From Schaalia sp. Marseille-Q2122 (GTDB lineage Bacteria; Actinomycetota; Actinomycetes; Actinomycetales; Actinomycetaceae), in assembly GCF_903645355.1 (NCBI RefSeq), contig NZ_CAHJXR010000007.1:124001-188000 (forward strand): DNA of 64,000 nt, in the 5' to 3' direction. The first letter of the stretch is position 1. Each line of letters opens with the position of its first letter. The notes beneath the pieces were generated by a model. It ran no database searches. It worked only from the letters and a program-made list of their open reading frames with translations, and was not told the origin of the DNA. The position numbers and the translations under genes were made by a program. Shown here one piece after another: positions 18,785 to 60,742 of this stretch.

Positions 18785-18929
18785 TTGCTCAGGGGCGCTG
18801 GGGCGGGCGGTGCCTGTGCCTATGTTTTGAGGTGCCGAGGCACCAAGGACGGTGGCCCGGCCCGCCCGCTCACGCCTTGCTTTGCAAGGCGCTCGAAGCC
18901 CGGCCGATGAGGCGGGGCGCTTGTGTCTA

Positions 18930-18978
18930 TTCGCCTACGCTTCGCTTCGGCTCCTATGCCCAACCGTGCCGCAAGCGC
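18930..18978 (+). repeat. Dispersed relative of the 59-60 kb array
   Basis: TCGCCTACGCTTCGCTTCGG, then CTCCTATGCCCAACCG and CGCAAGCG, closely matches segments of the repeat array at about 59070, 59387, 59600, 59827 and 60038 (for example TCGCCTTCGCTTCGTTTCGG, then CCCTTATGCCCAACCTC, GCTGCAAGCG). It lies inside the loop of the 18914-18981 inverted repeat. Confidence 0.75.
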
Positions 18979-19020
18979 CCCACCTCACCCGCCTTGCCGG
19001 CCGCGCCGCCCTCGTCGATA

Positions 19021-58305: not shown

Positions 58306-58833
58306 ATGCCCAAGGAGTGGAAGAAACCCAAGCCCACCGAGGCAGAAAAACGCAAAGCAGAAGCCGACGCGCACAGAACCATTGCCCGTAATAAGAAGGC
58401 ACTGCACGACTACCTCATTGAGGACAAGTGGGAGGCCGGTATCGTCCTTTCCGGTACCGAAGTGAAGGCGCTACGCATGGGGCGCGCCTCCCTGGTTGAC
58501 GCCTGGGTTGAAGTCAAGGACGGCGAAGCCTGGCTCTACGGCGCCAATATCCCCATGTACGCCCAGGGCTCCTGGAACAACCACGCACCCACGCGCAAGC
58601 GAAAGCTCCTCCTACACAAGGACCAGATCCTGCGCCTGGAACAGAAAGTGGCGGCCAAGGGCTACACCATCGTGCCCCTGGAGCTCTACTTCATTGGCGG
58701 ACGCGCCAAGGTCGAGATTGCCCTGGCAAAAGGTAAGCAGGAGTGGGATAAGCGTCAGGCTCTGCGGGAAGCCCAAGATAAGCGTGAGGCAGAGCGCGCC
58801 ATGCGGGCGTATGCTCGGCGTGCACGGGGCTAG
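58306..58833 (+). CDS. smpB: SsrA-binding protein SmpB
   Basis: 175 residues. Binds tmRNA and delivers it to stalled ribosomes. The family pattern is clear: ARNKKALHDYLIEDKWEAGI, LSGTEVKALR, WLYGANIPMYAQGSWNNHAP and RKRKLLLHKDQI. It is preceded by GGAAGGAGG at about seven bases. tmRNA (ssrA) often lies close by, but I find no tRNA-like 3' end in the following 1.6 kb, which is instead a repeat array. Confidence 0.96.
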   Translation: MPKEWKKPKPTEAEKRKAEADAHRTIARNKKALHDYLIEDKWEAGIVLSGTEVKALRMGRASLVDAWVEVKDGEAWLYGANIPMYAQGSWNNHAPTRKRKLLLHKDQILRLEQKVAAKGYTIVPLELYFIGGRAKVEIALAKGKQEWDKRQALREAQDKREAERAMRAYARRARG

Positions 58834-59455
58834 GTTGCCTCACTGAGGTCGGTGGGGCGGCGTATGTTGGCGGCGCTCAGGGCTGGCCCTGTGTCCGACC
58901 TGCTTCGCGATGGGTATGGCTGGGCGTAATTGGTATGGTTTGGCGCTGTTGGTATGGGGTATGCCGTCTACCAATGGCGATGATCCGTACCATTGGTGCT
59001 GAACCGTACCAATAGTGCTGATCCGTACCAGCGGCGAGGGGGTGTGGCCGTTAGGGGGTGGTTATGCCCAATCGCCTTCGCTTCGCTTCGGCTCCTGTTC
59101 TCGGCTGTGTTGCGAGTGTCAGCCTTGCCTGCCCCAGTGTCAGCCTTGCCTTGCGATGGGTATGCCTGGGCGCAATTGGTATGGTTTGGCGCTGTTGGTA
59201 TGGGGCATGCCATCTACCAAAGGTGCTGATCCGTACCAATGGAGCTGGGGCGTACCAATGGTGATGGGGTGTGGCCGCAGGCAGGGGATCTTGGAGAGGT
59301 TTCTACCTGCCTGGGCAGTAGTTCTGCCTGGGGTTGTGGACACGGGGGTTGTGGACACTGGGGTCGCTCGTGCCCTTTCGCCTTCGCTTCGGCCCTTATG
59401 CCCAACCTCGCTGCAAGCGTCAGCACTTTCTGTCCTGGTGTCCGCCTTGCCTTGC

Positions 59456-59909
59456 GATGGGTATGGCTGGGCGTAATTGGTATGGTTTGGCGCTGTTGGT
59501 TTGGGGCATGCCATCTGCCAAAGGTGCTGATCCGTACCAATGGAGCTGGGGTGTACCAATGGTGATGGGGTGTGGCCGTTAGGGGTTGGTTATGCCCAAT
59601 CGCCTTCGCTTCGTTTCGGCCCTTATGCCCAACCTCGCTGCAAGCGTCAGCACTTTCTGTCCTGGTGTCCGCCTTGCCTTGCGATGGGTATGGCTGGGCG
59701 TAATTGGTATGGTTTGGCGCTGTTGGTTTGGGGCATGCCATCTGCCAAAGGTGCTGATCCGTACCAATGGAGCTGGGGCGTACCAATGGTGATGGGGTGT
59801 GGCCGTTAGGGGTTGGTTATGCCCAATCGCCTTCGCTTCGTTTCGGCCCTTATGCCCAACCTCGCTGCAAGCGTCAGCACTTTCTGTCCTGGTGTCCGCC
59901 TTGCCTTGC
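59456..59909. repeat. 227-bp tandem duplication, one difference
   Basis: Units 59456-59682 and 59683-59909 are identical except for GTGTACCAATGG versus GCGTACCAATGG. This degree of identity indicates recent duplication or gene conversion within the array. Confidence 0.92.
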
Positions 59910-60302
59910 GATGGGTATGGCTGGGCGTAATTGGTATGGTTTGGCGCTGTTGGTATGGGGTATGCCGTCTACCAATGGCGCTGAAACGTACCAGCGGCGA
60001 AGGGGGCGTGGCCGTTAGGGGGTGGTTATGCCCAATCGCCTTCGCTGTGCTTCGGCTCCCATGCCCCGCTGCGTTGCAGGTGTCAGCCTTGCCTGCCCCA
60101 GTCTGTGCCCTGCTTCGCGATGGGTATGGCTGGGCGTAATTGGTATGTCTGGGCGCTGTTGGTATGGGGTATGCCTCGTACCAATGGCGATGATCCGTAC
60201 CAATGGTGCTGGGGTGTACCAGTGGCTTTGGGCTGGGCCGGTGGTATGGGTATGGATGAGAACTATGGGTGTGCCTGGGCGCAATTGGTATGGGGCATGC
60301 CG

Positions 60303-60420
60303 TCTACCAATGGCGCTGATCCGTACCAATGGCGCTGGGGTGTACCAAAGGCGTTGGGGCGTACCAATGGCGCTGATCCGTACCAAAGGCGTTGGGGCGT
60401 ACCAATAGTGGTGGGGCGCT
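60303..60420. repeat. Six-unit 19-bp minisatellite at array end
   Basis: TACCAA begins at 60305, 60324, 60343, 60362, 60381 and 60400: exact 19-base spacing. Consensus GTACCAATGGCGCTGATCC, with AAAGGCGTTGGGG variants. Confidence 0.92.
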
Positions 60421-60490
60421 CCGTCTGGAACGCCCCACCACTAGAGGAGGAAATCAATGCGACACAAGGAAAACGGAAGCAGGGAAAACC

Positions 60491-60742
60491 TCAGTTTCCA
60501 CCCGACATCATGGAGTCAGACATCATTCCGTCGTGCATGTGGCCGTCCGACATCATGGAATCTTCCATCATCATGCCGTCGCTCATGGTCTCATCCGACA
60601 TCTTGTCGTCCATCATCATGGAATCGGACATCATGGCGTCCTCAGACATCATCTTGTCTGCGGGAGCCTCGGAAGAGCAGGCGGCCAGACCAATGGTGGC
60701 AATAACAACGGCGGAAGCAGCGGCAATCTTACGGATGTTCAT
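60491..60742 (-). CDS. Methionine-rich small lipoprotein (MSDxM repeats)
   Basis: 83 residues from ATG 60742, preceded by AAGGAG at five bases. Type II signal peptide MNIRKIAAASAVVIATIGLA ends at Cys22 (lipobox LAAC). The 62-residue mature chain has 19 Met, many Asp/Ser/Glu, one HMH and no other Cys or aromatic residues. It consists of irregular MMSDSMM/MSDGMMM units, similar in style to Met-rich pentapeptide-repeat lipoproteins. Met-rich clusters bind Cu(I)/Ag(I) or scavenge oxidants; both roles are inference. Divergent from dipZ. Confidence 0.8.
   Translation of the reverse strand: MNIRKIAAASAVVIATIGLAACSSEAPADKMMSEDAMMSDSMMMDDKMSDETMSDGMMMEDSMMSDGHMHDGMMSDSMMSGGN

Follow-up and report, generated by a model that had tools for sequence, protein, structure and literature searches.

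The 19-bp-phased array downstream of smpB in the window, the whole 64-kb stretch of DNA analyzed, is best explained as a single member locus of a REP/BIME-like family of palindromic DNA repeats dispersed between genes, homogenized within each species by a putative trans-acting activity and tandemly amplified here; we put the probability of this reading at roughly 0.5. Two sister bacteria, the source organism (genome G000) and a sister species (genome G001), have a hairpin family in common, frequently at corresponding sites, and nearly every copy carries its own species' base pair. Concerted evolution of dispersed bacterial elements could be seen here in a clean natural form, in a family that lacks the transposase invoked for REP systems. 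How transposase-less palindromic repeats spread and become homogenized can be tested directly in it, and its 19-bp phase offers a strong handle on the factor.

How is the array built? It spans 58905 to 60411 and consists of seven palindromic modules, in each of which reverse units (TTGGTA...) lead into a 26-bp palindromic centre and then into forward units (TACCAA), all in 19-bp phase. The module is thus an inverted repeat of 19-bp units around a 26-bp palindrome, the unit core is GTAC-N5-GCGC, and the forward units are of the type TACCAATGGCGC... Motif centres are 19 bp apart inside each arm and also through the inversion point. Locus-specific spacers lie between the modules and give the array its 227-bp period. 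The features of the locus, in window coordinates, are as follows.

58306 to 58833, plus strand: smpB, upstream of the array (Pfam SmpB, 197.5 bits)
58905 to 59037, plus strand: module 1, three reverse units, centre 58949 to 58974, four forward units
59151 to 59264, plus strand: module 2, centre 59195 to 59220
59377 to 60225, unstranded: higher-order tandem repeat of module plus locus-specific spacer, period 227, 3.8 copies
59452 to 59565, plus strand: module 3, centre 59496 to 59521
59593 to 59645, minus strand: degenerate copy, in an array spacer, of a second stem-loop family (family B, see below)
59065 to 59096, 59370 to 59418, 59820 to 59872 and 60029 to 60066: other degenerate family B copies in array spacers
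59679 to 59792, plus strand: module 4, centre 59723 to 59748
59906 to 60000, plus strand: module 5, centre 59950 to 59975
60115 to 60228, plus strand: module 6, centre 60159 to 60184
60241 to 60411, plus strand: module 7, centre 60285 to 60310, forward arm of six units
60491 to 60742, minus strand: small convergent gene of 83 amino acids on the far side of the array, no Pfam match

The initial annotation had divided the array into six larger units and an end minisatellite; there are really seven modules, and what it took for a minisatellite is the forward arm of module 7, which has six units. The motif positions that it gave are exact, both for TACCA (13 of 13: 58969, 58988, 59007, 59026, 59215, 59234, 59253, 60305, 60324, 60343, 60362, 60381 and 60400) and for GGTATGG (three of three: 58913, 58932 and 58951), and the hairpin that it proposed between CGCTGTTGGTA and TACCAATGGCG is fully paired over its 11 positions, two of the pairs being G-U. 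Self-comparison of the array confirms the 19-base phasing, with lag 19 far above shuffled sequence. Self-identity at that lag over 58905 to 60420 is 0.470, the top value of 300 dinucleotide shuffles across lags 5 to 60 being 0.316, and two copies of one motif spaced by exactly 19 occur 19 times in the array, shuffles averaging 0.003. Tandem Repeats Finder returned the 19-bp period and the 227-bp higher unit. Between 58700 and 60800 there are no promoter-like or terminator-like sites, where shuffles give 1.0 and 2.0, and a plasmid and phage search with window positions 60100 to 60425 found no match. Two familiar candidates were rejected. The position downstream of smpB suggested a tmRNA, but ARAGORN called 0 genes in the window and the tmRNA lies ~11 kb further on; nor is this a CRISPR array, in which unique spacers of similar size would separate direct repeats: here the units follow directly on one another at 19-bp phase and change orientation at a palindromic centre.

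The same architecture recurs across the source genome, where a DNA search gave 50 matches to the array. A covariance model built from 39 hairpins, of rough calibration, gave 109 strand matches, which by our own count represent 55 modules at 23 places, with at least two modules at 16 of them. Among 360 units scored at 22 places, same-orientation neighbours are exactly 19 apart in 175 cases, 18 in one and 20 in one, the remaining spacings being 3 to 10 (3 cases) or 24 to 57 (23 cases); reverse-to-forward spacing is 19 in 53 cases, 13 in 12, 12 in one and 37 in two. Tandem periods of at least 40 were found at 11 of 16 stretches and depend on the locus (227, 192, 191, 190, 183, 160, 126, 53 and others). 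Copy numbers may be collapsed, three arrays being near contig ends (C7:232 kb, C10:2 kb and C11:0.3 kb; C-numbers denote contigs). Nearly all places checked (20 of 21) sit outside genes called by our own codon-usage script, which missed at least one gene (the DUF559-like gene discussed below) and whose gene borders are approximate. The exception is C11:331-500 (L044), where 19-bp-phased reverse units lie within the 3' end of an ORF, as though the array had turned coding; the 538-residue product has a Cthe_2159 domain at residues 144-398. For the pair and species-switch comparisons below, 57 centres were printed, five without units were removed by eye (C4:93112, C3:150977, C8:89322, C7:128360 and C7:186498) and C7:19163 and C1:20320 were added, giving 54 modules that do not include C7:44775.

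In the sister species, whose SmpB is 96% identical to that of the source genome, one hairpin lies downstream of smpB; its architecture and 19-bp phase are the same but its letters differ. In total, G001 possesses 17 single hairpins of this architecture and one partial match (C1:191827). Because the letters differ, plain DNA searches with the window sequence find the source genome only (1 of 38 and 1 of 35). The covariance model was run on 33 other genomes of the genus and found nothing in 32 of them; the roughly calibrated model gave one weak match in G012 (37.5 bits, E 5e-5). A spaced-box pattern, searched in 213 genomes of the bacterial family, matched 12 times in G000 and 7 times in G001, and among the other 211 genomes 15 had one match each, the reversed control matching 26 genomes by our own count. 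Of all the genomes searched, only the two sister species hold the repeat family. A pattern for the palindrome alone matched 14 stretches in GTDB contigs, a set that may omit the source genome; seven are from Bradyrhizobium and none was recognized by title as Actinomycetaceae. The same pattern had 0 matches in viral contigs. The initial annotation would have abandoned its reading had the array been an assembly artefact, or had no related strain carried it and had it shown neither transcription nor structure conservation. A related genome does carry the family, and an artefact is unlikely because the family is found at 23 places here and at matching places in a second genome.

Alignment of flanks identified 10 sites where an array of the source genome matches a hairpin site of the sister species, with both flanks aligned at seven and one outer flank at three (C10, C3:145.7 and C3:147.6), and the surrounding genes of these ten sites are in an order common to the two genomes; in an integron attC array, by comparison, gene cassettes would lie between the sites and an IntI integrase would be encoded. 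An eleventh common site (C7:19 kb in G000, C4:16847 in G001) lies in a stretch ~95% identical between the species. There are also differences in presence and absence: the model finds nothing at the G001 sites aligned to four arrays of the source genome (C3:154, C3:143.9, C2:36 and C2:113), and nothing at the G000 sites aligned to five hairpins of the sister species (C68:69, C1:450, C13:300, C2:233 and C13:346 kb), the flanks being too diverged for reading insertion junctions or target duplications. Partner sites were placed for a subset only, with the other G000 places and G001 C57:47 kb outside the pairing.

Are the elements at common sites simply descended in place? This predicts that same-site pairs would be more alike, but the best identity of same-site cross-species pairs averages 39.3 of 70 compared with 40.0 for unpaired elements (permutation p 0.73, on group means), and so the elements do not look simply descended in place, although this absent site memory might partly reflect saturated intergenic divergence. 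Instead, letters follow species: G-C occupies both column pairs, 6/65 and 25/46, in 53 of the 54 modules of the source genome and in 0 of 17 hairpins of the sister species. The switch and site-pairing comparisons cover 17 of 18 G001 matches (the partial C1:191827 left out) and 10 of 11 common sites (C7:19/C4:16847 left out), and with two species carrying the family, the letter switch is described here as a difference between them rather than as a directed change. The sole exception to the G-C switch is the element at C7:19 kb, the only one of G001 type among the 54 modules. The surrounding region (G000 C7:17-21 kb, G001 C4:15-19 kb) reaches an identity of ~95% that is matched by only two other aligned stretches, perhaps through recent exchange between the species.

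The array could alternatively be a passive satellite, a functionless product of replication slippage at a palindrome that arose by chance, involving no trans-acting factor. Locus-specific tandem periods, at 11 of the 16 stretches, indicate local duplication, and the expanding satellite suggested by the initial annotation is half right, in that most places in the source genome hold two or more modules, whereas the G001 hairpins are single. Local slippage, however, does not make dispersal to 23 and 17 places, sites common across species, or a family-wide switch, and a passive origin is very improbable.

What would the putative activity recognize? The arms of the hairpin covary. In the 15 G001 hairpins, the covariation score is 0.267 against 0.167 shuffled (0 of 500 shuffles) and is above every slid version, and in a 39-sequence set (alignment A2, 24 of the 54 G000 modules plus 15 G001 hairpins) it is 0.304 against 0.199 shuffled (0 of 500). 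Both-side changes are seen at 15 of 33 pairs in the 15 G001 hairpins, and the count of such cells exceeds 500 of 500 shuffles and every slid version, whereas the plain number of both-side-changed pairs is within the shuffles (66 of 500 for the 15 hairpins, 234 of 500 for the 39 sequences). Kinship among sequences can beat such shuffles without structure, and the argument for covariation therefore rests on the slid control and on the free columns. The clearest covariation joins columns 21-24 with 47-50, where letters are free in G001 yet mostly complementary; the conserved boxes are GTAC and GCGC. Compensatory arms can also come from template switching without selection, and the arms pair less well in G000 than in G001, which counts against our explanation.

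A DNA-binding protein that reads the 19-bp-spaced boxes in the duplex, co-evolved with the switch and serving regulation or chromosome organization, would account for a spacing that is kept while the letters between boxes vary, for the conservation of the GTAC and GCGC boxes, and for a switch seen at nearly all modules. The fixed spacing and the near-universal switch fit a trans-acting factor, and the protein-binding array that had been proposed initially may still hold. Duplex binding, however, needs no pairing between columns that are unconserved in G001 and yet largely complementary across the dyad, and covariation at such positions points to a folded strand. Gene context is similarly divided. 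All 17 G001 hairpins lie outside genes called by our script, and the 14 with both neighbours called comprise 4 convergent, 2 divergent and 8 co-directional sites. A gene start faces the element at 10 of these 14, from 64 to 825 bp away, and given this a regulatory role is possible; but the 4 convergent sites, and the 7 of 8 co-directional sites that are nearer a gene 3' end than a start, are unlike typical operators. On balance, we consider duplex binding unlikely. Among ten array-side proteins scanned in the source genome, three are aminoacyl-tRNA synthetases (C10:2.9-4.5 kb, C6:132.1-133.1 kb and C1:120.2-122.9 kb).

Proximity to gene 3' ends, seen at many element sites, would also suit hairpins that work at the RNA level, as stem-loops for transcript stability or antisense blocking, in 3' untranslated regions for instance. 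The plus strand of 58905 to 59045 folds far better as RNA (z -6.27) than its complement (-2.42) or than the plus strand as DNA (-2.68), and wobble-type departures are near-pure G-U on one strand per amplified locus: window modules have 4-8 G-U and 0 C-A, and C5 modules have 0 and 10-12, with the G-U on the other strand. However, the strand bias is also in the spacers, units and spacers having the same sign at 15 of 17 places, and since the seven spacers folded are no better than shuffles (z -1.2 to 1.5, from a chosen subset of modules and spacers), strand-biased mutation could explain the G-U purity, which we set aside as proof of RNA. The modules contain other mismatches too (3-7 of 32 pairs in the window), and the two genes that flank C5:301 both run opposite to its G-U strand. 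Eight G001 hairpins fold strongly on both strands (z -3.1 to -10.3 as RNA), and G001 L175 folded as DNA has a z of -9.47. In our own simple scan, 6 of 17 G001 sites have a terminator-like site, in the sense of the flanking gene, between that gene and the element, the smpB site in G001 has terminator-like sites on both sides, and an Rfam 15 search of the 64-kb window had 0 matches at gathering score. The structured RNA of the initial annotation thus holds for structure, the module having covarying arms, but an RNA function is poorly accommodated by good folds on either strand, and we regard it as improbable.

The strong one-strand G+T bias extends over whole amplified arrays, spacers included (C10, C5, C6:133k, C3:154k, C2:43k and window 58905-60411), and is weaker or inconsistent in most 150-bp flanks; it is mostly of one sign per contig. 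Ordinary intergenic regions of the window, 18 in number, have a mean absolute keto bias of 0.10, and no clear replication signal emerged from the composition of the individual contigs.

With which known repeats can the family be compared? According to one account, REP/BIME elements are intergenic palindromes with compensatory stem changes, whose inverted pairs form modules that follow each other head to tail, joined by linkers particular to each locus; the BIMEs of Stenotrophomonas resemble the present family in their head-to-tail modules, in linkers of unrelated sequence and in compensatory stems (PMC2817692). The family described here is likewise extragenic and palindromic with complementary arms, has inverted units in head-to-tail modules with locus-specific linkers, and shows compensatory stem changes (score and cells, 0 of 500, the plain pair number not being beyond shuffles). 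The letters of REPs co-evolve with their transposase, as stated in the part of the source available (PMC8266576). Unlike REPs, however, neither alignment consensus (A1, A2) has a GTAG or CGTC end tag, the boxes being GTAC and GCGC, and there is no Y1 transposase (RAYT) in G000, G001 or four relatives (Y1_Tnp, PF01797, 0 of 6 genomes; control matches in 5 of 14). The arms are 19-bp phased direct repeats around a 26-bp palindrome, also unlike REP/BIME. Most REP families usually exceed 100 copies, compared with 55 modules at 23 places in G000 and 17 in G001, but this is a soft criterion, and some REPs are tabled with fewer than 100 copies in the excerpted source (PMC2817692). Because the tag and transposase are lacking and, more softly, the copy number is low, we do not class the family as REP; it works like one. 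The CGTC-tagged REPs, apparently without a dedicated transposase in the portion of the report consulted (PMC3733652), are similar as palindromic repeats without a known mobilizer, but, as far as that portion describes them, the present family differs in having no CGTC end tag, in being longer, and in its phased 19-bp arms and tandem arrays.

Two further systems invite comparison. MITEs are short, dispersed, inverted-repeat elements with presence/absence differences between species, and the family is alike in this; unlike MITEs, the Y1 search found no parent transposase, and sites are common across species though sequences are not. Plasmid iterons are also phased repeats, of ~19-22 bp, but the present family is dispersed over many contigs and palindromic, and there is no Rep match among the flanking proteins scanned. 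A literature search found no paper describing this family, as judged by titles and the abstract starts shown.

In the mechanism that we favour, homogenization of dispersed elements in trans, the activity would recognize a folded strand together with the phased GTAC/GCGC boxes, and would copy or convert elements against each other, such that each species comes to hold one type. Local tandem growth would arise from recombination or replication slippage at the hairpins. The activity might more specifically be a putative sequence-specific, non-Y1 nuclease acting on the folded phased palindrome, whose cuts would drive conversion to one type, tandem growth and local inversions; this version is a distinctly long shot. 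A candidate partner, as a lead only, is a fast-evolving gene, ~370-395 codons long, which in both species has an element on either side (G000 C3:145.7/147.6 kb, G001 C13:287.7/289.0 kb). It resembles DUF559, a domain that we take to be nuclease-like, although the match is weak (17.4 bits against a cut-off of 20.6) and confined to the G001 copy; NCBIfam and PADLOC found nothing in the two proteins. The copies are 57% identical between species, compared with 96% for SmpB. Each species has one paralog, the two being 51% identical, and other genomes of the genus reach 33-34% identity at best. The gene stays a lead because relatives are widespread (31 of 33 other genus genomes), the 6-kb stretches around the paralogs have no covariance-model match, and other genes are also enclosed by nearby element pairs. 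The flanking genes are reversed in contig order between the species but the DUF559-like gene is not, and so the inter-element segment is inverted between them (G000 C3:145.5-147.9 kb, G001 C13:287.2-289.1 kb). Elsewhere, between two arrays of the source genome (C6:68.7-70.2 kb, L039), a weak PIN-like frame, below cut-off, and an HTH_17 frame look, from their sequence, like a toxin-antitoxin pair; the G001 counterpart is one hairpin, with a gap of ~200 bp.

A second dispersed stem-loop family, B, is ~90 nt long and occurs in the window at 18905-18997 (minus strand), without an Rfam match there. Further copies are at C8:91.7k, C4:349k, C2:264k, C2:217k, C3:304.9k, C3:305.2k, C4:7.6k and C4:8.0k, and in G001 at L167:1842-1925. 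Several copies adjoin 19-bp arrays, the loci searched having been preselected for array match. The outer stem of family B covaries, with both-side changes at 13 of 26 predicted pairs in 11 copies, and its conserved inner stretch is GGTTGGGCATAGGAGCCGAAGCGAAGCG.
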